This document shows, piece by piece, positions 1-11,361 of a stretch of DNA of 64,000 bases. The stretch's first letter is position 1, and every line of letters starts with the position of its first letter. The notes under the pieces were generated by a model. It ran no database searches, was not told the origin of the DNA, and was given only the letters and a program-made list of their open reading frames with translations. This stretch comes from Pseudomonas sp. PDNC002 (GTDB taxonomy: Bacteria; Pseudomonadota; Gammaproteobacteria; Pseudomonadales; Pseudomonadaceae), in assembly GCF_016919445.1 (NCBI RefSeq), contig NZ_CP070356.1:503501-567500 (forward strand), given 5' to 3'. Both the position numbers and the translations under genes were made by a program.

Positions 1-1
1 G

Positions 2-760
2 TGGATTCGCCAGGACCTCGCCATCGATGCGCCGACGCCACCGCTGCACCGCCTGCAGGATCGCTACTCGCTGCGCTGCGCGCCCCACGTGCTGGGCGTA
101 TTGGCCGACAGCCTGGGCCTGCTGCGGCAGTTCATCGAGATCGAACTGAACAGCGCCAACGACAACCCGATCATCGACGCCGAGGACGAACGCGTCCTCC
201 ACGGCGGGCACTTCTACGGCGGCCATATCGCCTTCGCCATGGACAGCCTGAAGAACCTGGTCGGCAACGTCGCCGACCTGCTCGACCGGCAGCTCGCGCT
301 GCTGGTGGACACCCGCTACAACCATGGCCTGCCGAGCAACCTCTCGGGCGCGCCGGCCGATCGCACGATGATCAACCACGGCTTCAAGGCCGTGCAGATC
401 GGCGCCAGCGCCTGGACCGCCGAGGCGCTGAAGAACACCCTGCCGGCCAGCGTGTTCTCGCGCTCCACCGAGTGCCACAACCAGGACAAGGTGAGCATGG
501 GCACCATCGCCGCGCGCGATGCCCTGCGCAGCCTGGAGCTCACCGAGCAGGTTGCCGCTGCGACGCTGCTGGCCGCGCAACAGGGCGTCTGGCTGCGCTG
601 CAACGAGGCCGGCGCGCGTCCGCTGCCGGCACCGCTGGGCGGCATGCACGAACAACTGGCGCAGGACTTCCCGCCGCTGATCGAGGATCGCGCCCTGGAA
701 GGCGAACTGCGCCTGTGCCTGGAGCGCATCCGCGCGCGCCACTGGGGGCTTTATGCGTAA
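2..760 (+). CDS. HAL/PAL-type aromatic amino acid ammonia-lyase, aryl polyene cluster (3' part)
   Basis: C-terminal part of a histidine/phenylalanine ammonia-lyase family enzyme; the reading frame is open through the left edge, so the start and the MIO-forming Ala-Ser-Gly lie outside the window. Visible family features are the YSLRCAPHVLG segment, ELNSANDNPIID, and STECHNQDKVSMG, which carries the conserved polar active-site residues. In aryl polyene clusters such lyases are thought to make a cinnamate- or coumarate-type aromatic acid from Phe or Tyr as the polyketide starter. Substrate preference cannot be read here because the selectivity loop is missing. The stop overlaps the start of the next gene by 8 nt, pointing to one operon. 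Confidence 0.85.
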   Translation, partial: WIRQDLAIDAPTPPLHRLQDRYSLRCAPHVLGVLADSLGLLRQFIEIELNSANDNPIIDAEDERVLHGGHFYGGHIAFAMDSLKNLVGNVADLLDRQLALLVDTRYNHGLPSNLSGAPADRTMINHGFKAVQIGASAWTAEALKNTLPASVFSRSTECHNQDKVSMGTIAARDALRSLELTEQVAAATLLAAQQGVWLRCNEAGARPLPAPLGGMHEQLAQDFPPLIEDRALEGELRLCLERIRARHWGLYA

Positions 761-1190
761 GGCCGGGGTGTTGCAGGCCGAGGTGGAAATCCTCGTGCCG
801 TTCTTCGACGTGGACATGATGGAAGTGGTCTGGCACGGCCACTACGTCAAGTATCTGGAAGTGGCGCGCTGCGCCCTGCTCGACAAGCTCGACCACAACT
901 ACGCGCAGATGCGCGAGGCGGGCTACGCCTGGCCGGTGATCGACCTGCAGCTGCGCTACGTGCGCGGCGCGCGCTTCGGCCAGCGCATCAGCGTGCGCGC
1001 CGACCTGGTGGAGTGGGAGAACCGCCTGAAGATCAACTACCTGATCAGCGACGCCGAAACCGGCGAGCGCCTGACCCGCGCCAGCAGCAGCCAGGTGGCA
1101 GTGGAAATCGCCAGCCGCGAGATGCAGATGGTCTCCCCGCCGGTGTTCATCGCCGCCGTGCAGCGCGCGCTGGAGGCCGAAGCATGCTGA
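753..1190 (+). CDS. 4-hydroxybenzoyl-CoA thioesterase family (hotdog) protein of the aryl polyene cluster
   Basis: A 145-residue single hotdog-fold thioesterase. The 4HBT-type active-site stretch FFDVDMMEVVWHGHYVKYLE lies at about residues 17-37, with the usual catalytic Asp upstream of the W-H-G-H-Y turn. Position and family match the thioesterase (ApeK type) that accompanies exporter genes in aryl polyene clusters; the likely job is release or editing of the acyl-ACP-bound polyene. The ATG sits inside the end of the lyase gene and the stop overlaps the next start (ATGCTGA), so translation is probably coupled on both sides. Confidence 0.85.
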   Translation: MRKAGVLQAEVEILVPFFDVDMMEVVWHGHYVKYLEVARCALLDKLDHNYAQMREAGYAWPVIDLQLRYVRGARFGQRISVRADLVEWENRLKINYLISDAETGERLTRASSSQVAVEIASREMQMVSPPVFIAAVQRALEAEAC

Positions 1191-1777
1191 AGCGCGTCTT
1201 GCTTGCCTGGGGTCTGCTGCTGGCTCCGCTGGCCCACGCCTTCAACCTGCCGCAACTGGCCGCGCAACTGGGCAAGCCGGCGGTGGTGCGGGGCGAATTC
1301 GTCCAGGAGAAACATCTGCGCTCCCTGCCGCAGCCGCTGGTGAGCAAGGGACATTTCGTCCTGGCCAAGCAGCACGGTCTGCTCTGGCTGCTGCAGACGC
1401 CGCTCAAGCAGGACTACCGCATTGACGACCAGGGCATCGCCCGGCGCGACGTCAACGGCTGGCAGCAACTGCCGCAACGCAGCGCCAGCGCACAGCAGAA
1501 CCGCCTGTTCCTCGCTGTGCTGGAAGGCGACAGCAGCGGCCTGCAACGGGATTTCGACCTCGCGCTGAGCGGCGAGTCGAACGACTGGAAACTTACCCTC
1601 ACGCCGCGCGCCGTGCTGCTCAAGCAGATCTTCGACAGCATCGAGATCGCCGGCGGCGAGCTGGTGCAGCGCATCGAGCTGCACGAAGCGCAGGGCGACC
1701 GCACCGTGCTGCGCATGAGCAGCAGCCAACCCGGCGACAGCCTGACCGATGCGGAGCGAAGCGACTTTGCCCGCTGA
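1184..1777 (+). CDS. LolA-like outer-membrane lipoprotein carrier family protein
   Basis: A 197-residue exported protein with a Sec signal peptide (MLKRVLLAWGLLLAPLAHA). The mature part follows the LolA-like pattern seen in aryl polyene clusters (VVRGEFVQEKHLRSLPQPLVSKGHF, then DYRIDDQGI). It presumably acts in the periplasm as a carrier for the hydrophobic polyene or polyene lipid; this is inferred from family and neighbours. The ATG overlaps the previous stop. It is shorter than the open frame, which extends upstream antisense-free into the thioesterase gene, but the signal peptide fixes this start. Confidence 0.85.
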   Translation: MLKRVLLAWGLLLAPLAHAFNLPQLAAQLGKPAVVRGEFVQEKHLRSLPQPLVSKGHFVLAKQHGLLWLLQTPLKQDYRIDDQGIARRDVNGWQQLPQRSASAQQNRLFLAVLEGDSSGLQRDFDLALSGESNDWKLTLTPRAVLLKQIFDSIEIAGGELVQRIELHEAQGDRTVLRMSSSQPGDSLTDAERSDFAR

Positions 1778-4097
1778 GCGGCCGCAGTGGTTGCCACGCC
1801 TGGTAATTGCCGGGCTGCTGGCGCTGCTCGCCCTCGCGGCCTGGCAATGGCGCCACGGCCCGCCGCTGAGCACCGATCTGCTGGAGTTAGTGCCCGGCAG
1901 CAGCCGTGACGCCTTGCAGAAGCAGGCCGAGCAGCGCATGCAGGAACCGCTTAATCGCGAGCTGATCGTGCTGGTTGGCTACCCCGAGCGTGACACGGCC
2001 ATCGCCCACGCCCGCGAGCTGGCCGAGCGCTGGCAAGCCAGCGGCCTCTACGAGAAGGTGCAATGGGGCGTGCAGGCCGATTTGCCCGCGCTGCGCGAGC
2101 AACTGCGCGCGGGTCGCCTGGCGCTGCTCAGCGACGACGACCGCCGGCAACTCGCAAACGACCCCGCCACGTTCATCCAACAGCGCGTGGAACAACTCTT
2201 CGATCCGTTCTCCGGCTTCGGCCTGGTGCCCAACGATCAGGACTGGTTCGGCCTCGCCCTGCGCATCCAGCAGCACCAGCCGCTGCCTTCGAAGGTGCAG
2301 CTGGACATCGGCAGCGGCGCGCTGGTCGCCGAGGAAGACGGCCGCAGCTGGGTGCTGCTGCGCGCCCGCACACGCGCCGATGCCTTCGACATGAACCTGC
2401 CGCGCGCGGTGGCGGCGCAGATCGCCGAGGCGCGCCAGCAACTGGCCGCCGATGACGGACAACTCGTCGCTGCCAGCGGCCTGCTCTACGCCGCCGATGG
2501 CCAGCGCCAGGCCAGCCGGGAAATGACCTGGGTCGGCGGCGGCGCCGCATTGGGCACGTTGCTCCTGCTGCTGCTCGCCTTCCGCCGCGTTCGCGCACTG
2601 CTGGCCTTCCTGCCGGTGCTGGTCGGCGTGCTGGCCGGCGCCACGGCGTGCATTGCGCTGTTCGGCAAGGTCAACCTGCTGACCCTGGTGCTAGGCGCAA
2701 GCCTGATCGGCGTCGCTTCGGACTACCCACTGCACTACCTGTCGAAAGCCTGGAGTCTCGATCCGTGGCAGCCCTGGCGCGCGCTGAAGCTGAGCCAGCG
2801 CGGGCTGTTCCTCAGCCTTGCGACCAACCTGATCGGCTATCTCGCCCTGGCCTGCACGCCCTTCCCGGCGCTGACCCAGGTGGCGACCTTCTCGGTGGCC
2901 GGGCTGCTCGCCGCCTACCTCTGCGTGATCGGCCTACTGCCACTGTTGTTGCGCGGCGATGCCCTCTCTCCGCAACCGCGTCTGCTCGGATTCGGCGTAC
3001 GCCTGATCCGCCTGCGTGAAGCACTGATCAAACGTACCGGAAGCTGGCCGCTGCTCGCCGTGGTGGCGCTGCTCTGCGCAGGCGGCTTGTGGCAGTTGCA
3101 GATCAAGAACGACCTGCGCCAATGGCTCGGCAGCCAGCCGCAATTGCTCGCCGAAGCCCAGGCCACCGCGCGCATCACCGGCTACCAGCCCACCAGCCAG
3201 TTCTTCCTGGTCCGCGCCGCCGACGAGACCCAGCTGCTGCAACGTCAGGCCGATCTGGCCGCGCGGCTGGACAAGCTGGTCGCCTCCGGGCAATTGAAGG
3301 GCTACCTCGCGCTCAACCAGTTGCTCGCCAGCGCCGCCCAGCAACAGAAGGCCCGTGAGGCCCTGCGCCAACTGCCGCAGCACTGGCAGGCACTGATTGA
3401 CCTGGGCATTCCGCAAGCCGCGCTGCAAGCCGAGCTGGAACAGCTGGAAAAACTCCCGCAGCAATCCCTCGACCAAGCCCTGAAAGGCCCGCTGGGCGAA
3501 CCCTGGCGGCCGCTCTGGCTGGGCACGGTGGACGGCGGCGTGGCCGGACTGGTGAGCCTGCAAGGGCTGTCCGATGCCGGCGTGCTGGCCGAGCAGGCGA
3601 AAGGCCTGGACGGCGTGCAGCTGGTGGATCGCCTCGGCGAGCTGAACCGCCTGTTCGCCGCCACCCAGGTCAGCGCCACCGAACTCAAGCTGCTCTCCTG
3701 CGTGCTGATCTTCGCCCTGCTGCTCAAACCCTTCGGTCCGCGCGGTGCCCTGCGCATCGTCCTGCTGCCGCTGCTGGCCGCGCTGTGCAGCCTCGCCAGC
3801 CTGGGTTGGCTGGGCCAGCCGCTGACGCTGTTCAGCCTGTTCGGCCTGCTGCTGGTGACCGCCATCGGCGTGGATTACACGATCCTCATGCGCGAACGCG
3901 TCGGCGGCGCGGCGGTGAGCCTGGTCGGCGTGCTGCTGGCGGCCATCACCACCTGGCTGTCGTTCGGCCTGCTGGCGCTCTCCAGTACGCCGGTGATCAG
4001 CAACTTCGGCCTGGCCGTAGGGCTCGGCCTGGCGTTCTGTTTCCTGTTCTGCCCCTGGGCGGGTGAGAGTCACCGGGAAGGAGTTCCGGCGTGCTGA
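1749..4097 (+). CDS. MMPL/RND-family exporter of the aryl polyene cluster
   Basis: A 782-residue inner-membrane transporter. After the first membrane segment (about residues 17-34) comes a large periplasmic domain, then a membrane bundle from about 260 to 400, a second periplasmic domain, and a final bundle from about 640 to 770. This is the duplicated MMPL/RND layout. Acidic intramembrane motifs LGASLIGVASDYPLHYL and TAIGVDYTILMRE are present in the two halves, as expected for proton coupling. The equivalent gene (ApeM type) is a standard part of aryl polyene clusters and is thought to move the product across the inner membrane. The start overlaps the LolA-like gene by 29 nt. Confidence 0.88.
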   Translation: MRSEATLPAERPQWLPRLVIAGLLALLALAAWQWRHGPPLSTDLLELVPGSSRDALQKQAEQRMQEPLNRELIVLVGYPERDTAIAHARELAERWQASGLYEKVQWGVQADLPALREQLRAGRLALLSDDDRRQLANDPATFIQQRVEQLFDPFSGFGLVPNDQDWFGLALRIQQHQPLPSKVQLDIGSGALVAEEDGRSWVLLRARTRADAFDMNLPRAVAAQIAEARQQLAADDGQLVAASGLLYAADGQRQASREMTWVGGGAALGTLLLLLLAFRRVRALLAFLPVLVGVLAGATACIALFGKVNLLTLVLGASLIGVASDYPLHYLSKAWSLDPWQPWRALKLSQRGLFLSLATNLIGYLALACTPFPALTQVATFSVAGLLAAYLCVIGLLPLLLRGDALSPQPRLLGFGVRLIRLREALIKRTGSWPLLAVVALLCAGGLWQLQIKNDLRQWLGSQPQLLAEAQATARITGYQPTSQFFLVRAADETQLLQRQADLAARLDKLVASGQLKGYLALNQLLASAAQQQKAREALRQLPQHWQALIDLGIPQAALQAELEQLEKLPQQSLDQALKGPLGEPWRPLWLGTVDGGVAGLVSLQGLSDAGVLAEQAKGLDGVQLVDRLGELNRLFAATQVSATELKLLSCVLIFALLLKPFGPRGALRIVLLPLLAALCSLASLGWLGQPLTLFSLFGLLLVTAIGVDYTILMRERVGGAAVSLVGVLLAAITTWLSFGLLALSSTPVISNFGLAVGLGLAFCFLFCPWAGESHREGVPAC

Positions 4098-5272
4098 CGG
4101 TCCTGTTCTGGCTGGCGATGCCGCCGCTGTTCGCCCTCGCGGTGATCGGCGGACGCCGCCTGCGTCTGCTGCCCATCGTCAGCCAGTTGCTGGTGGCGGG
4201 ACTGCTGTTGCCGGCGCTGTTCGTGGCGTTGCAGGGCCAGGGCTTCGAAGTGCGCACGCTAGTCACCGCGCCCTGGCTCAGGCTGCTCTACGACATCGGT
4301 TTCGCACTGCTGCTGGGACACATCCTCAGCGATGTGATCGACCTCGACGTCAGCCGCCAGAGCCTGAAGATCGCCCTGCCCAGCTTCGCCGTGCCACTGG
4401 TCTGCGGCATGGCCAGCGCCTGGTGGTTGCTGGGCGTGCGCGAGGGCATGAACGTGCTGGGCATCGGCCTGCTGTTCTCGATCACGGCGATCCCGGTGCT
4501 CTACCTGTTCCTGCGCAATATCGACTACCCCGAGGACGCTACGCGCCGGCTGATGCACGCGGCGGTGCTGATGGACCTGTGGTGCTGGAGCCTGTTCGGC
4601 CTGGCACAGAGCAGCAGCGATCCCAGCAAGCTGGTATGGCCGCTGCTGGCCGGTGGCGCGCCGTTGCTCCTGCATCTGTTGCGCGTGCGCCATGCGCTGG
4701 CCTACAGCGTGCCGTTCTTCGGCCTGATGATCGCCTTCCAGCACTGGCACCTGAACACCCTGGTGTTCGCCATCACCTGGCTGATGGCCCAGGCGGCGGT
4801 GCACCAGCCGTTCCGCCTGCCCGCGTCCCCACAGGTGGCGCAGGCGTTGCAGAACTACCTGCTGGTACCGCTGGTGCTGGCCTTCGGCATCCTGCAGATC
4901 GACTTCCACAACGCCCTCTCCGGTTACTCCTGGCTCTACCTCGGCGCGCTGCTGGTGCTGCCGGTGGCGAGCAAGCTGGTGGGTAGCTGGCTCGGCCTGC
5001 GCTGGGCGTTGCCCGGCACGGATCGGCGCACGTTATGGACGGAAAGTCTGCTGCTGAACATTCGCGGGTTGACCGAGATCGTCTTTCTCAATCTGCTGTT
5101 CCAGCAGGGCCACATCGACTCGCTGCTGTATTTCAGCCTGCTGCTGATGAGCCTGTTCGCCACCCTGCTGCCCGCGCTCTGCGGAATACGACGACCGCAC
5201 GGCGCCACTGTTTCCCAGCCCGATTCCCAGGACATTGCCCCGGCAAGGAGCCCTACTGATGCCCGCCCCTGA
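4091..5272 (+). CDS. Cation:proton antiporter-like multi-spanning membrane protein in the aryl polyene cluster
   Basis: A 393-residue protein with about 11-12 hydrophobic segments and a short polar tail. The arrangement resembles the CPA2/KefB sodium-proton exchanger fold: an acidic helix end (GHILSDVIDLD, about 76-86), FSITAIPVLYLF (129-140), and VLMDLW with a single membrane Asp (162) where antiporters carry D-D or Q-D. Start is GTG at 4091, overlapping the exporter stop by 7 nt (GTGCTGA). Such a gene is not part of the minimal aryl polyene set, so it may move ions to support the exporter or may have been recruited for another step. Function is not established. Confidence 0.75.
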   Translation: MLTVLFWLAMPPLFALAVIGGRRLRLLPIVSQLLVAGLLLPALFVALQGQGFEVRTLVTAPWLRLLYDIGFALLLGHILSDVIDLDVSRQSLKIALPSFAVPLVCGMASAWWLLGVREGMNVLGIGLLFSITAIPVLYLFLRNIDYPEDATRRLMHAAVLMDLWCWSLFGLAQSSSDPSKLVWPLLAGGAPLLLHLLRVRHALAYSVPFFGLMIAFQHWHLNTLVFAITWLMAQAAVHQPFRLPASPQVAQALQNYLLVPLVLAFGILQIDFHNALSGYSWLYLGALLVLPVASKLVGSWLGLRWALPGTDRRTLWTESLLLNIRGLTEIVFLNLLFQQGHIDSLLYFSLLLMSLFATLLPALCGIRRPHGATVSQPDSQDIAPARSPTDARP

Positions 5273-6497
5273 TCTGCAACAACGCACCGTCGTCGTCATC
5301 GGCGCCGGTCCGTCCGGCGCCATCGCCGCCGCCCTGCTCAAGCGCAAGGGCCACGACGTGCTGGTGCTCGAGCGCCAGCGCTTCCCGCGCTTCTCCATTG
5401 GCGAAAGCCTGCTGTCGCACTGCCTGGACTTCGTCGAGGAGGCCGGGATGCTCGACGCCGTGCTGGCCGCCGGCTTCCAGGTGAAGCACGGCGCCGCGTT
5501 CGGCTGGGGTGACCGCTATACGGCGTTCGACTTCCGCGACAAATTCACCGACGGCAAGGGTTCGACCTTCCAGGTCCAGCGCGCGCGCTTCGACCAGTTG
5601 CTGGCCGACCAGGCCGAGCTGCAGGGCGTGGAAATCCGCTACGAGGAAGAGATCGTCGCAGCCGACTTCGACGGAGCCTGCCCGCGCCTGCGCGTGCGCC
5701 GCCTGGACGGCAGCGAGTACGACGTGGAATGCGCCTTCGTCCTCGATGCCAGTGGCTACGGCCGCGTGCTGCCGCGCCTGCTCGACCTGGAAGCGCCGTC
5801 CGGCTTCCCGGTGCGCCGCGCGGTGTTCACGCATATCGAGGACCGCATCGACGCGCCGCACTTCGACCGCGAGAAGATCCTCATCAGTATCCACCCCGAA
5901 GAACGCGGCATCTGGTACTGGACCATCCCCTTCAGCGATGGCCGCACCTCCATTGGCGTGGTCGCCGAGGACCGCCATTTCGAAGGCAAGCTGGATGACC
6001 TGGACGCCTGCCTGAAAGACTTTTTCGACGCTGCGCCGAACCTGCGCCCGCTGCTGAAGAACGCCGTGTGGGACACCCCGGCGCGCACCCTCGGCGGCTA
6101 CTCGGCGAACGTGAAGCGCCTGGCCGGACCGGGCTTCGCCCTGCTGGGCAACGCGGCGGAATTCCTCGACCCGGTGTTCTCCTCCGGCGTCACCATCGCC
6201 ATGCGCTCCTCCAGCATGGCGGCCAACCTGCTTGACCGTCAGCTCAAGGGCGAGGCAGTGGACTGGGAAGGCGATTTCGCCCAGCCGCTCAAGCACGGTG
6301 TCGATACCTTCCGCGCCTATGTCGAGGGGTGGTACGACGGCAGCTTCCAGGACGTGATCTTCTACGAGAAGGCCTCGCCGGATATCCGCCGGATGATCTG
6401 CTCCATCCTCGCCGGCTACGCCTGGGACACGCGCAACCCCTTCGTCGCCGAACCGCAGCGTCGCCTGCGGGTGCTCTCCGAAATCTGCGCCAGCTAA
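5259..6497 (+). CDS. FAD-dependent halogenase-like oxidoreductase
   Basis: A 412-residue flavoprotein. The N-terminal dinucleotide fold has GAGPSG at 15-20 and an acidic residue ending strand 2 (VLER). Flavin-dependent halogenase signatures are present: Lys76 in FQVKHGAAFGW, WYWTIP at 219-224 (the WxWxIP motif) and FLDPVFSSG at 302-310 (the Fx.Px.Sx.G motif). Xanthomonadins, the Xanthomonas aryl polyenes, are brominated, so aromatic halogenation of the polyene head group is the best-supported guess; a non-halogenating oxidoreductase of the geranylgeranyl-reductase-like superfamily is the alternative. The ATG at 5259 follows AAGGAG at 5245-5250, so the open upstream codons are not used. Confidence 0.85.
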   Translation: MPAPDLQQRTVVVIGAGPSGAIAAALLKRKGHDVLVLERQRFPRFSIGESLLSHCLDFVEEAGMLDAVLAAGFQVKHGAAFGWGDRYTAFDFRDKFTDGKGSTFQVQRARFDQLLADQAELQGVEIRYEEEIVAADFDGACPRLRVRRLDGSEYDVECAFVLDASGYGRVLPRLLDLEAPSGFPVRRAVFTHIEDRIDAPHFDREKILISIHPEERGIWYWTIPFSDGRTSIGVVAEDRHFEGKLDDLDACLKDFFDAAPNLRPLLKNAVWDTPARTLGGYSANVKRLAGPGFALLGNAAEFLDPVFSSGVTIAMRSSSMAANLLDRQLKGEAVDWEGDFAQPLKHGVDTFRAYVEGWYDGSFQDVIFYEKASPDIRRMICSILAGYAWDTRNPFVAEPQRRLRVLSEICAS

Positions 6498-6512
6498 AGG
6501 ACAAGGACTGTC

Positions 6513-7241
6513 ATGACCCGCCCCGCCTCCACCTATGTCGAAGAAACCCGCTTCGGTTTCTGGTTCCTGCAAAGCCACACCTGGCAGCACCATGTGCTGC
6601 GCGTGGCGATCAACGACCTGAAGCGCCTGATCAGCTGGGACATCCCGCAGAACCCGGTACTGCTGGATGCCGGTTGCGGCCAGGGCCGCTCCTTCCGCCT
6701 GCTGCGCGATGCGTTCAAACCCGGCCGCATGATCGGCCTCGACGCCGACCCGCACAGCCTCGACTGCTCGGCGGTGGAAGCCGCGCGGGAGAACATCGAG
6801 GTGGAGCTGAACTGCGCCGACTGCGCCGACCTGATGCTGCCCTCGGCCAGCGTCGACATCCTGTTCTGCCACCAGACCTTCCATCACCTGGTGGAACAGG
6901 AGCGCGCCCTGGAAGAGTTCTGGCGCGTGCTCAAGCCGGGCGGCCTGCTGCTGTTCGCCGAATCCACCGAGGCGTACATCGATACCTGGGTCATCCGCTG
7001 GTTCTTCCGCCACCCGATGCACGTGCAGAAGAGCGCCGCGCAGTACCTGCAAATGCTCCGCGAGCAGGGCTTCGAATTCAGCGAGAAGAACGTCTCGTAC
7101 CCCTACCTGTGGTGGAGCCGCGCCAAGGACTTCGGCCTGTTGGAACGCTGGGGTCTGCGCAAACCCAAACCGTTCGGTCTGCGCGAGGAAACCCTGGTCA
7201 ACGCCGTAGTGCGCAAGCCTCTGGAGAACCGCCCCGCATGA
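6513..7241 (+). CDS. Class I SAM-dependent methyltransferase of the aryl polyene cluster
   Basis: A 242-residue Rossmann-fold methyltransferase. Motif I is LLDAGCGQG (50-58), followed by the acidic strand-2 end (IGLDADPHSLDCS) and a FHHLVEQERALEEFWRVLKPGG post-region typical of ubiE/type-11 enzymes. Aryl polyenes commonly carry methyl or methoxy groups on the aromatic ring, so ring C- or O-methylation is the likely role; which of the two cannot be told. The ATG lies 15 nt after the flavoprotein stop and the stop overlaps the next start (ATGA). Confidence 0.85.
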   Translation: MTRPASTYVEETRFGFWFLQSHTWQHHVLRVAINDLKRLISWDIPQNPVLLDAGCGQGRSFRLLRDAFKPGRMIGLDADPHSLDCSAVEAARENIEVELNCADCADLMLPSASVDILFCHQTFHHLVEQERALEEFWRVLKPGGLLLFAESTEAYIDTWVIRWFFRHPMHVQKSAAQYLQMLREQGFEFSEKNVSYPYLWWSRAKDFGLLERWGLRKPKPFGLREETLVNAVVRKPLENRPA

Positions 7242-7741
7242 TCCGCTGGCTGAGCCTTGCCCTGTTCCTGCTGCTGGCCGGTTGCGCCCAGCACGCGCCG
7301 CTGCCCTCCGCGTTGCCGCCGCTGGCCACGCCGTTGCAGCTGCACATTCAGCGCGAGCAGACGCAGGCCGGCCAACTGTCCACACAGGATTGGCTGCTGG
7401 TGATCCAGCAGGAAGGCGGGGCGCTGCGTTGGTCGCTGATCGATCCGCTCGGCATCCCGCTGTCACGCCAGTTGCTGCGTGACGGAGAATGGAGCAACGA
7501 CGGCCTGCTGCCGCCCAATCCGGAGGCTCGCGAGCTGTTCGCCGTGCTGCTGTTCGCCCTGACGCCGGACGCCGATCTCGCCGCGCGCTATCAGGCCGCG
7601 GACTACCAGACGGACGGCGCCACGCGCCACCTGCAACAGCGCTGGCAGATCACTTACCGTTCGGCGCAGGATTTCACCCTGCAATCCGCCGACACCCGCT
7701 ACCAGGTGACGCCCCTGAACGCCGAGAGCGCCGCGCCATGA
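7238..7741 (+). CDS. DUF3261 family lipoprotein of the aryl polyene cluster
   Basis: A 167-residue lipoprotein: the signal peptide ends in the lipobox LLAGC (Cys at about residue 17), and the mature part resembles DUF3261 proteins, which occur almost only in aryl polyene clusters (ApeN type). It is expected to be anchored in the outer membrane, where it could receive or insert the polyene, in a LolA/LolB-like relay with the LolA-like protein encoded at 1184-1777. It is translationally coupled on both sides by ATGA overlaps. Confidence 0.82.
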   Translation: MIRWLSLALFLLLAGCAQHAPLPSALPPLATPLQLHIQREQTQAGQLSTQDWLLVIQQEGGALRWSLIDPLGIPLSRQLLRDGEWSNDGLLPPNPEARELFAVLLFALTPDADLAARYQAADYQTDGATRHLQQRWQITYRSAQDFTLQSADTRYQVTPLNAESAAP

Positions 7742-8946
7742 CCGCCACCTACCTGAACGAGCTGGGCCTGATCTGCGCCCTGGGCAACGACTGCCGCGAA
7801 GTGGCCGCCGCGCTGCTCGCCGGTGAATCCGCCGGCATGCAGGTGCAGGCGGGCTGGGTGCCGGGCAGAAGCCTGCCGGTCGGCACGGTGAAGGCGCGCA
7901 TGGCGGCCATTCCCGACAAGCGCCACGACACCCGCAACAACCGCCTGCTGCTGGCCGCCGCGACACAGATCGACCCGGCCATCCGCGCCGCCGTCCAGCG
8001 CTATGGCGCCGCGCGCGTGGCGGTAGTGCTGGGCACCAGTACCTCGGGCATCCAGGAAACCACCCAGGGCATCCGTCATCACACCCTGCACGGTCAGTTG
8101 CCCGAAGGCTTCCACTACTCGCATCAGGAGCTGTCCGACCCGGCCGTGTTCCTCGCCGAACACTATGAGCTGGCCGGGCCGAGCTACGTGATTTCAACTG
8201 CCTGCACCTCCAGTGGGCGAGCCCTGCAGAGTGCGCGGCGGCTGCTGAACCTGGGGCAGTGCGACGCGGTGCTGTGTGGCGGCGTGGACAGCCTGTGCGA
8301 GCTGACGCTCAACGGCTTCGGCGCGCTGGAAGCCGTCTCTGACGAACGCTGCAATCCATTCTCGGCCAACCGCCAGGGCATCAACATCGGCGAAGGCGCC
8401 GCGCTGTTCCTGATGACTCGCGAGCCGTCCCGCATTGCCCTGCTCGGCGCCGGCGCCAGCTCCGACGCACACCATATTTCCGCGCCCGAGCCCGAAGGCC
8501 GTGGCGCCCGCGAGGCGATGCGCAAGGCGCTCACCGAAGCGAAACTGGCGGCCGACCGGATCGCCTACCTGAACCTGCATGGCACCGCGACTGCGCACAA
8601 CGACGCCATGGAAAGCCTCGCCGTCAGCGCCGAGTTTCCCGCTGGCGTGCCGTGCTCCTCGACCAAGCCACTGTCCGGGCATACCCTCGGCGCCGCCGGT
8701 GCGCTGGAGGCGGCGTTCTGCTGGCTGCTGCTGGGCGAGCACAACCCCGACAACCGCCTGCCGCCGCAGCGCTGGGATGGCGTCGCCGATCCGCAATTGC
8801 CGGTGCTGCAACTGGTCGGCGAGGACGCACCGCGGCTGCCCGCCGAAGGCCCGCGCTACCTGATGAGCAATTCGTTCGCCTTCGGCGGCAACAACATCAG
8901 CCTGATCCTGGGCGAGATGAGCAAAGATTCTGGAGTGACCCGATGA
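7738..8946 (+). CDS. Beta-ketoacyl-ACP synthase (first KS of the aryl polyene cluster)
   Basis: A 402-residue KAS I/II-type ketosynthase with an intact triad: Cys156 (STACTSSG), His281 (HGTAT) and His315 (KPLSGHTLG, with Lys310). It should catalyse Claisen condensation on ACP-bound chains. By order and family it matches ApeO, the elongating ketosynthase that pairs with a chain-length-factor-like partner (ApeC type) in E. coli; no such partner is visible here and it may lie left of the window. The start overlaps the lipoprotein stop (ATGA) and the end overlaps the dehydratase start. Confidence 0.9.
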   Translation: MTATYLNELGLICALGNDCREVAAALLAGESAGMQVQAGWVPGRSLPVGTVKARMAAIPDKRHDTRNNRLLLAAATQIDPAIRAAVQRYGAARVAVVLGTSTSGIQETTQGIRHHTLHGQLPEGFHYSHQELSDPAVFLAEHYELAGPSYVISTACTSSGRALQSARRLLNLGQCDAVLCGGVDSLCELTLNGFGALEAVSDERCNPFSANRQGINIGEGAALFLMTREPSRIALLGAGASSDAHHISAPEPEGRGAREAMRKALTEAKLAADRIAYLNLHGTATAHNDAMESLAVSAEFPAGVPCSSTKPLSGHTLGAAGALEAAFCWLLLGEHNPDNRLPPQRWDGVADPQLPVLQLVGEDAPRLPAEGPRYLMSNSFAFGGNNISLILGEMSKDSGVTR

Positions 8947-9410
8947 TCGACTGGCCGATCGCCTCCCTGCTGCCCCACGCGGGCGACATGATCCTCATCG
9001 ACGAAGTGCTCGACTTCGGCGACGAAGACATCCGCACGCGCCTGACGGTGCGCCCGGGCGGGCTGTTCAACGAGGCCGATGGCAGCCTGCCGGCCTGGGT
9101 CGGCGTGGAGCTGATGGCGCAGAGCGTCGCCGCCTATGCCGGCTGCCAGGCGCGCGTGCGCGGCGAGCCGGTGGAACTGGGCTTCTTGCTCGGCACCCGC
9201 CAGTACCAGTGCGACGTGGCGAGCTTCCCCGCCGGGTCCGAAATCACCATCCATGCCATCCGCACCCTGCAGGACGACAACGGCATGGGTGTCTTCGAAT
9301 GCCATCTGCAAGGGCCGGGCATCAAGGCGCTGGCGCGCCTGACCGTGTTCCGCCCGCCAGAGGTCGCAAGCTATCTACAAGAACCTGCTGTGAAAGAGCC
9401 AAGCGTATGA
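8943..9410 (+). CDS. Hotdog-fold 3-hydroxyacyl-ACP dehydratase of the aryl polyene cluster
   Basis: A 155-residue FabA/FabZ-like hotdog dehydratase (ApeP type). The catalytic His lies in LLPHAGDMILIDEV (about 8-21) and an acidic residue in GVELMAQSVAAYAG (about 56-69). It removes water from the 3-hydroxyacyl-ACP after each round of extension and reduction, leaving the trans double bond that builds up conjugation because no enoyl reductase acts. Overlaps both neighbours by 4 nt. Confidence 0.87.
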   Translation: MIDWPIASLLPHAGDMILIDEVLDFGDEDIRTRLTVRPGGLFNEADGSLPAWVGVELMAQSVAAYAGCQARVRGEPVELGFLLGTRQYQCDVASFPAGSEITIHAIRTLQDDNGMGVFECHLQGPGIKALARLTVFRPPEVASYLQEPAVKEPSV

Positions 9411-10135
9411 CTGACCCCATTCTGGTAACCGGCTCCAGCCGCGGCATCGGCCGCGCCATTGCCCTGCGTCTGGCCCAGGCCGGCCACGACATCGTGCTGC
9501 ATTGCCGCAGCGGCCGCGCCGAAGCCGACGCTGCGCAGGCCGAGATCCAGGCGCTGGGCCGCAGCGCCCGCGTGCTGCAATTCGACGTGGCCGACCGCGA
9601 GGCCGCGCGCACCATCCTCGAAGCCGACGTGGAAGCCCACGGCGCGTATTACGGCGTGGTATGCAACGCCGGCCTGACCCGCGACGGCGCCTTCCCGGCG
9701 CTGACCGAGGAGGACTGGGACCAGGTGCTGCGCACCAACCTGGACGGTTTCTACAACGTCCTGCACCCGGTAATCATGCCGATGATCCGCCGCCGCCAGC
9801 CGGGGCGCATCGTCTGCATCACCTCTGTGTCCGGGCTGATCGGCAACCGCGGCCAGGTCAACTACAGCGCCTCGAAGGCTGGCGTGATCGGCGCGGCCAA
9901 GGCGCTGGCCATCGAGCTGGGCAAACGCAAGATCACCGTGAACTGCGTCGCGCCTGGGCTGATCGACACCGCCATGCTCGACGAGCAGGTGCCAGTGGAG
10001 GAAATCCTCAAGATGATCCCCGCGCAACGCATGGGTACGCCGGAAGAAGTCGCCGGCGCGGTGAATTTCCTGATGTCGGCCGAGGCCGGCTACATCACCC
10101 GCCAGGTGCTGGCGGTCAACGGAGGGCTGTGCTGA
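9407..10135 (+). CDS. 3-oxoacyl-ACP reductase (FabG-like SDR) of the aryl polyene cluster
   Basis: A 242-residue short-chain dehydrogenase. The NADP-binding TGSSRGIG is at 8-15, CNAG at about 86-89, catalytic Tyr153 and Lys157 in YSASK, with Ser at 140/142 in CITSVSG. It reduces the 3-ketoacyl-ACP made by the ketosynthase (ApeQ type). It is cluster-specific rather than the housekeeping FabG, judging from its place between dehydratase and ketosynthase genes. The ATG overlaps the previous stop by 4 nt. Confidence 0.9.
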   Translation: MTDPILVTGSSRGIGRAIALRLAQAGHDIVLHCRSGRAEADAAQAEIQALGRSARVLQFDVADREAARTILEADVEAHGAYYGVVCNAGLTRDGAFPALTEEDWDQVLRTNLDGFYNVLHPVIMPMIRRRQPGRIVCITSVSGLIGNRGQVNYSASKAGVIGAAKALAIELGKRKITVNCVAPGLIDTAMLDEQVPVEEILKMIPAQRMGTPEEVAGAVNFLMSAEAGYITRQVLAVNGGLC

Positions 10136-11361
10136 TGAAGCGCGTGGTCATCACCGGCATGTCCGGCATCACCTCCCTGGGTTCGGACTGGGCGAGCATC
10201 GAGGCGAACTTCAGCGCCAACCAGAGCGGCATCCGCCGCATGGACGACTGGGACCGCTTCACCGAACTGAATACCCGCCTGGCCGGCCCGGTGCTGGATT
10301 TCAGCGTACCCAAGCACTGGACCCGCAAGCAGCTGCGCAGCATGGGCCGCGTCTCGCGCCTGTCGGTGGGCGCCGCCGAGCGCGCGCTGGCCGATGCCGG
10401 GCTGCTGGGCGACGAGTCGATCCGCGATGGGCGCATGGGCGTGGCCTGCGGCTCGTCCACCGGCAGTACCGACGAGATCAAGGCGTTCGGCAACATGCTG
10501 CTGAACTCGGTGGCCGACGGCCTCAATGCCAACTCCTACGTGCGCATGATGCCGCACACCACGGCGGCGAATATCAGCATCTTCTTCGGCCTCAAGGGCC
10601 GGGTGATCCCGACCTCCAGCGCCTGCACCAGCGGCAGCCAGGGCATCGGCTACGCCTACGAGGCGATCCGCTTCGGCCGCCTGCCGCTGATGCTCGCCGG
10701 TGGCGCCGAGGAACTGTGCCCGACCGAAGCCATGGTGTTCGACGCGCTCTACGCCACCAGCCTGAAGAACGACGCCCCGCACAGCACACCGCGGCCCTAC
10801 GACAGCGGCCGCGATGGCCTGGTGATCGGCGAAGGCGCCGGCATGTTGGTGCTGGAGGAACTGGAACACGCCCTGGCCCGTGGCGCGCATATCCACGCCG
10901 AGATCGTCGGTTTCGGCAGCAACGCCGACGGCCAGCACACCACCCGCCCCGAGCAGACGACCATGCGCCGGGCGATGGAGCTCGCGCTGGAGGACGCCGG
11001 ACTGCACGCCGACGCCATCGGTTATGTGAACGGCCACGGTACTGCCACCGAGCAGGGCGACATCGCCGAGACCCTGGCCACCAGCGAGCTGTTTGGCAGC
11101 CGCATGCCGATCAGCTCGCAGAAGAGTTTCCTGGGCCACACTCTGGGAGCGTGCGGTGCGCTGGAGTCCTGGTTCAGCATCGAGATGATGAACAGCGATC
11201 GCTACGTGCACACCCTGAACCTGGACGACATCGACCCGCGCTGTGGCGATCTCGATTACCTGCGGGGCGAGCCGCGCAAGATGAGTAACGAGTACGTGAT
11301 GAACAACAACTTCGCCTTTGGCGGGATCAACACCTCGTTGATCTTCCGCCGCTGGCGCTGA
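10135..11361 (+). CDS. Beta-ketoacyl-ACP synthase (second KS of the aryl polyene cluster)
   Basis: A 408-residue ketosynthase with Cys164 (SSACTSGS), His301 (HGTATEQGD), Lys330 and His335 (KSFLGHTLGAC), so it is catalytically complete and not a decarboxylase-only chain length factor. It matches ApeR, proposed in E. coli to start the chain. The gene shares one base with the reductase stop (TGATG). With the first KS it shows that the cluster has two separate condensing enzymes. Confidence 0.9.
   Translation: MKRVVITGMSGITSLGSDWASIEANFSANQSGIRRMDDWDRFTELNTRLAGPVLDFSVPKHWTRKQLRSMGRVSRLSVGAAERALADAGLLGDESIRDGRMGVACGSSTGSTDEIKAFGNMLLNSVADGLNANSYVRMMPHTTAANISIFFGLKGRVIPTSSACTSGSQGIGYAYEAIRFGRLPLMLAGGAEELCPTEAMVFDALYATSLKNDAPHSTPRPYDSGRDGLVIGEGAGMLVLEELEHALARGAHIHAEIVGFGSNADGQHTTRPEQTTMRRAMELALEDAGLHADAIGYVNGHGTATEQGDIAETLATSELFGSRMPISSQKSFLGHTLGACGALESWFSIEMMNSDRYVHTLNLDDIDPRCGDLDYLRGEPRKMSNEYVMNNNFAFGGINTSLIFRRWR

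Follow-up and report, generated by a model that had tools for sequence, protein, structure and literature searches.

The window analysed here, a 64,000-nt stretch of Pseudomonas sp. PDNC002 (contig NZ_CP070356.1, positions 503,501 to 567,500 of the forward strand), carries part of an aryl polyene (APE) gene cluster and, within it, an open reading frame (ORF) for a flavoprotein, in the following called P0001. P0001 is a single-domain flavin adenine dinucleotide (FAD) enzyme of the flavin-dependent halogenase superfamily and belongs to a clade with the solved structure 3nix that is found alongside APE clusters. We call P0001 and its orthologs Type I. Family, fold, conserved catalytic positions and cluster place are established in the present analysis.

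The APE genes form a forward-strand run that begins roughly 6.9 kb ahead of the window and reaches position 11361 (Table 1), as seen by comparison with annotated APE proteins of Pseudoalteromonas. Before the window, the order is chain-length factor, acyltransferase, two acyl carrier proteins (ACPs), ApeG, AMP ligase, ApeI, glycosyltransferase and acyltransferase, and then an aromatic ammonia-lyase that extends into the window. ACPs, AMP ligase, ketosynthase and chain-length factor, ketoreductase, dehydratases, thioesterase, LolA and MMPL proteins are all encoded in this single run, which upholds the APE cluster setting previously proposed for the flavoprotein in a sequence-only reading of the locus.

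Table 1 Features of the APE gene run and of the Type I flavoprotein, in window coordinates.
Feature	Position	Strand	Basis
Aromatic amino acid ammonia-lyase, C-terminal part	1..760 (gene start -781)	+	60% to annotated Pseudoalteromonas enzyme; ASGD motif
Acyl-CoA thioesterase (ApeK-like)	753..1190	+	APE references, Pfam
LolA-like carrier (ApeL-like), approximate start	1187..1777	+	NCBIfam and position
MMPL/RND-like transporter (ApeM-like)	1749..4097	+	NCBIfam, APE references
Membrane protein, antiporter-like by eye only	4091..5272	+	Between transporter and flavoprotein
Type I APE flavoprotein (P0001), halogenase superfamily	5259..6497	+	Open ORF, 412 aa; profile, PDB-sequence, alignment and fold matches
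GAGPSG, FAD-binding GxGxxG, residues 15-20	5301..5318	+	Motif position
Lys76 (KHGAAF), halogenase active-site Lys column	5484..5486	+	Alignments, motif position
WYWTIP, WxWxIP motif, residues 219-224	5913..5930	+	Alignment, motif position
GNA, residues 297-299; Asn298 versus Asp in Type II and five aligned solved halogenases	6147..6155	+	Alignment, motif scoring
FLDPVFSSG, Fx.Px.Sx.G, residues 302-310; Asp304 at FxEP Glu column	6162..6188	+	Alignments, motif position
S-adenosylmethionine-dependent methyltransferase	6513..7241	+	Pfam Methyltransf_11 3.3e-23
Lipoprotein at ApeN/DUF3261 place	7238..7741	+	Named by position; lipobox-like start by eye
Beta-ketoacyl synthase (ApeO-like)	7738..8946	+	APE references, Pfam
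ApeP-like dehydratase	8943..9404	+	APE references; PF22817 1.3e-18
FabG-like reductase (ApeQ-like), approximate start	9401..10135	+	NCBIfam, APE references, Pfam
Beta-ketoacyl synthase (ApeR-like)	10132..11361	+	APE references, Pfam

The sequence-only reading had singled out GAGPSG, Lys76, WYWTIP and FLDPVFSSG as family signatures of flavin-dependent halogenases, and all four are present, starting at residues 15, 76, 219 and 302. GAGPSG aligns as the GxGxxG motif. Lys76 shares the column of the active-site Lys (K79 in PrnA) with the five solved halogenases CndH, Mpy16, 8zop (FasV), ChlB4 and CmlS, in an alignment without PrnA itself, and with five PF04820-core proteins of a presumed Pseudoalteromonas genus, so assigned for its likeness to the named L039. 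In the same five core proteins, the Glu of FxEP aligns with Asp304, the acidic residue in the Fx.Px.Sx.G motif of P0001; we take this Glu to be PrnA E346. The WxWxIP motif is kept in 132 of 132 Type I matches scored, and Lys and WxWxIP are given as halogenase criteria in PMC5945002. The alignment was also the check proposed by the sequence-only reading, and it placed Lys76 and the motif residues in the halogenase columns, not outside them. Together with a fold comparison, in which P0001 showed the halogenase fold, sequence and alignment uphold membership in the superfamily.

Among Pfam profiles, P0001 matched PF04820 (Trp_halogenase) with 80.7 bits (cut-off 21, E 1.4e-22). The top phmmer match in the PDB was 3nix (E 3.4e-111), a structural genomics entry for a flavoprotein/dehydrogenase of Cytophaga hutchinsonii (Bacteroidota) whose title names no function, followed by CndH, Mpy16, 8zop (FasV), ChlB4, Bmp2, CmlS and PltA, with E-values of 1e-44 to 3e-35 for CndH, Mpy16, 8zop, ChlB4 and CmlS. 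The fold ranking placed 3nix nearest among the solved structures and then the halogenases ChlB4, Mpy16, PltA and Bmp2. These four, which P0001 resembles rather than PrnA or BrvH, are 25-29% identical to it and act on other substrates, and in the alignment ChlB4 and Mpy16 have GD where P0001 has GN. The PrnA/BrvH type named earlier is not supported, as P0001 is not a close match to PF04820, the core profile of PrnA, RebH and BrvH: its score compares with more than 600 bits for the PF04820-core matches listed from the presumed Pseudoalteromonas genus. All 59 genomes of that genus have at least one PF04820 match at E 1e-20, with up to 20 per genome.

The flavoproteins of xanthomonadin-like APE clusters, here called Type II, share superfamily and motif residues with Type I, are 30-35% identical to P0001 and form a separate clade to which P0001 does not belong. 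In the Stenotrophomonas family, 149 genomes were compared: 18 carry Type I (including one, G448, split over two frames), 74 have their best match at 30-35%, none has both and 50 gave no match; seven of the 99 matching genomes, whose matches were weak, short or at 27-42% (one with 42% across 160 residues where a contig ends), are in neither class and were not counted. APE-type genes of xanthomonadin-like composition surround all six inspected loci of the 74 (L243 and L246-L250; genus g159 is presumably Xanthomonas). Outside this family, APE-type genes lie near L245 (31%) and are missing near L244 (33%). The triplet before FxDP reads GNA in 131/131 Type I and GDA in 12/12 Type II proteins scored, and the five PF04820-core proteins have Leu at the position of Asn298. 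A script found the Lys in 11 of 12 Type II proteins, and L241 reads KPAAD, so it has the Lys as well.

In an unrooted tree without PF04820-core rows and without rows of QhpG, the hydroxylase of a tryptophylquinone precursor, support was 100 for Type I with 3nix, 100 for Type II and 88 for the five solved halogenases. With the core and QhpG rows included, the clades of Type I with 3nix and of Type II had supports of 98 and 100, the deep order was unreliable with supports of 12-55, and the PF04820-core proteins joined Type I at a support of 100 but through a branch 4.1 long, a grouping that we read as long-branch attraction. Trees were built without L205 and L206, for which no protein had been picked, and an alignment of loci from the 299-genome sample described below without L005, L007, L009, L011, L012, L021 (in-frame TAA) and L033 (partial). 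Because Type I and the Type II flavoprotein form separate clades, the analogy to the brominated xanthomonadins drawn in the sequence-only reading is not supported: it is one to a distant relative from a different clade, which never co-occurred with Type I in the 149 genomes.

For the distribution of Type I, 299 evenly drawn Pseudomonadota genomes were searched with P0001 at E 1e-20. Matches were found in 41 genomes, 30 at 45-100% identity (orthologs) and 11 at 29-34%. The APE ketosynthase ApeR lies on the same contig in 29 of the 30 ortholog genomes, G046 being the exception, and is at most about 18 kb away from the Type I gene in all 29 (coordinates compared by eye). Of the 43 genomes with an APE ketosynthase, 29 carry Type I and 14 do not. 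In the window's own genus, the gene was found in 7 of 25 genomes. A scan of named genomes yielded at least 593 relatives, with Pseudomonas, Vibrio, Shewanella, Burkholderiales and Myxococcota among the carriers in the matches listed, and the matches listed from a plasmid collection include Neisseria and Acinetobacter records. Counts for named loci rest on the best 80 of these at least 593 relatives; their commonest Type I neighbours are MMPL upstream (49/80) and a ketosynthase downstream (38/80). A complete core (ApeR and AMP ligase visible together with a glycosyl- or acyltransferase) was seen in 59 loci, of which 55 have an ammonia-lyase and 21 a methyltransferase. The E. coli APE cluster (L004) has neither flavoprotein nor ammonia-lyase, and the passages of PMC8253772 on the E. 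coli APE genes use neither the word "FAD" nor the word "oxidoreductase". The Type I flavoprotein is a conserved family trait travelling with APE genes, a halogenase-like tailoring enzyme in a known kind of cluster. Its annotation differs among the orthologs listed: "tryptophan 7-halogenase" in one case, "NAD(P)/FAD-dependent oxidoreductase" in others. Two Type I copies, L021 of genome G066 (1501-2718) with a TAA in frame and L230 of genome G448 split over two frames, may reflect decay or sequencing errors.

Halogenation of the aryl polyene by P0001 is plausible and the best single reading, although we see the question as evenly balanced. Flavin-dependent halogenation does occur on an aryl polyene, because deletion of altN abolishes the bromination of alterochromides and leaves unbrominated ones; the halogenase AltN, placed here in neither Type I nor Type II, adds bromine to an aryl polyene that derives from coumarate (PMC5577590). 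Two Xanthomonas clusters with a halogenase gene belong to pigments carrying 0-2 Br, and Lysobacter, without a halogenase gene, has a pigment without a bromine pattern (PMC3691225). In the mechanism we propose, a general reductase would supply reduced FAD, which would react with O2, and the C4a-hydroperoxide would oxidise chloride or bromide to hypohalous acid (HOX). HOX would move through a tunnel to Lys76 and Asp304, and these residues would guide it towards the phenol of an ACP-bound aryl starter or aryl polyene. The co-substrate would be a halide, the target the aryl ring and the product halogenated. A carrier-protein-bound substrate is suggested by the resemblance to ChlB4, Mpy16, PltA and Bmp2, which act on carrier-bound substrates. 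It is doubtful, though conceivable, that all Type I proteins are functional halogenases and that halogenated APEs are widespread in Gram-negative bacteria and overlooked, in a line apart from that of the xanthomonadin clusters.

Several observations weigh against halogenation. The open-licence literature searched yielded no product of a Type I cluster, and Asn298, a substitution that may affect activity, replaces the Asp of the GD motif in all 131 Type I proteins scored. P0001 also matches the NCBIfam models of QhpG (NF049967; 6.7e-33, 114 bits, below the cut-off of 240) and of geranylgeranyl reductase (GG-red-SF; 1.1e-34, below the model's cut-off). An Azoarcus APE cluster contains a halogenase gene known by annotation, assigned here to neither Type I nor Type II, and its pigment arcuflavin was read as a non-brominated heptaene (PMC3949708). 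Type I is carried by Vibrio plantisponsor and two Grimontia species, and in the family of Grimontia by 87 of 197 genomes at 54-60% identity, with one more at 37%. Three of four inspected genomes of this family have a GC content of 39% (G575, 38.8%) and may be Aliivibrio-like; to our knowledge, the APE of V. fischeri is unhalogenated, and the sequence-only reading says the same of known Vibrio APEs. At the four inspected loci of this family, Type I and a methyltransferase are divergent from the first genes of the APE run, which is in full view only for G575.

Alternatively, P0001 could be a flavin monooxygenase that has retained the halogenase scaffold and adds a hydroxyl to the polyene or its aryl head, acting with the ammonia-lyase in one starter-making or finishing route, which we consider rather unlikely. 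The hydroxylase QhpG, itself described as similar to halogenases (PMC7876137), is a relative of P0001 in the same superfamily, but three members of the QhpG family lack the Lys, the IP and the FxDPxxSxG in the alignment, all of which are kept in Types I and II. This retention of the halogenase motif residues throughout argues against a hydroxylase, and WxWxIP has been suggested to block monooxygenase action (PMC5945002). A hydroxylation step is moreover needless in alterochromides, in which the coumarate-derived polyene is intact without altN (PMC5577590). In favour of a joint route, flavoprotein and ammonia-lyase occur together in 23 of the 43 ketosynthase genomes, compared with 6 with the flavoprotein only, 2 with the lyase only and 12 with neither (Fisher p 1.3e-4); both are missing from all six ketosynthase-bearing genomes of family f13, taken as Enterobacteriaceae, as they are from the E. 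coli cluster. At one row per family (10, 6, 1 and 5), however, the link is not significant (p 0.15), and we treat the association as a hint at a common starter route and not as a finding. Two genomes, G162 and G243, have the APE ketosynthase and the ammonia-lyase with no flavoprotein match and offer natural comparisons. The source genome also encodes a QhpG-family monooxygenase at 4921662-4922930, outside the window, which overlaps the sole other P0001 match in that genome.

A core role in the pigment or its anchoring through a different flavin reaction, be it desaturation, reduction or isomerisation of the geranylgeranyl-reductase kind, is improbable: the GG-red-SF match below cut-off, the MMPL transporter upstream in 49 of the 80 named loci and the family-wide Asn298 would fit it, but the gene is missing from the E. 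coli APE cluster and from 14 of the 43 APE-ketosynthase genomes, and the fold ranking puts halogenases first after 3nix. We think it very unlikely that Type I is a conditional halogenase dependent on the supply of bromide or chloride, with most producers making mainly unhalogenated APE, as strict conservation argues for regular use, even though Xanthomonas makes pigment mixtures bearing 0-2 Br (PMC3691225) and the Azoarcus pigment is non-brominated despite the annotated halogenase gene (PMC3949708).

APEs rank with the most widespread pigments of bacteria, and because 29 of 43 APE-ketosynthase genomes carry the uncharacterised Type I enzyme, its function bears on the true structures of many of these pigments. 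Should Type I be a halogenase, halogenated pigments would be made by many producers; if it is not, even complete halogenase signatures fail to predict halogenation, a point of weight for genome mining.

In the presumed Pseudoalteromonas genus, Type I was found in 2 of 59 genomes. The flanks of the one inspected Type I locus contained no ORF of nonribosomal peptide synthetase (NRPS) size, no NRPS-sized ORF was seen around the weak P0001 matches in L061, L062 and L064, and no alterochromide cluster was positively located in the 59 genomes by searches with P0001, PF04820 and the ammonia-lyase. From Stenotrophomonas we draw no conclusion on halogenation: a 1985 title reports halogenated pigments in Xanthomonas maltophilia, and L126, labelled S. 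maltophilia but unconfirmed as true S. maltophilia, carries Type I and also a PF04820-core protein (628.7 bits).

Among the other genes of the run, the ammonia-lyase has a selectivity region reading FHGCGLG, from which we read no preference for Tyr or Phe. The LolA-like carrier did not match the Pseudoalteromonas LolA reference; a longer frame (1013-1777) matched LolA2_flexi of NCBIfam with 2e-14, below cut-off. The transporter gave no Pfam match at 1e-4, and the membrane protein between it and the flavoprotein matched nothing in NCBIfam or Pfam. Homologs of this membrane protein adjoin Type I upstream in 17 of the 80 named loci, and arcG of the Azoarcus APE cluster is given as a Na/H antiporter (PMC3949708). 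The lipoprotein matched neither Pfam nor the Pseudoalteromonas DUF3261 protein and has relatives at 50-60% in Pseudomonas and Stutzerimonas loci. Opposite the flavoprotein and methyltransferase genes, a 737-aa open frame on the minus strand (5253-7466) is read as a high-GC artefact.
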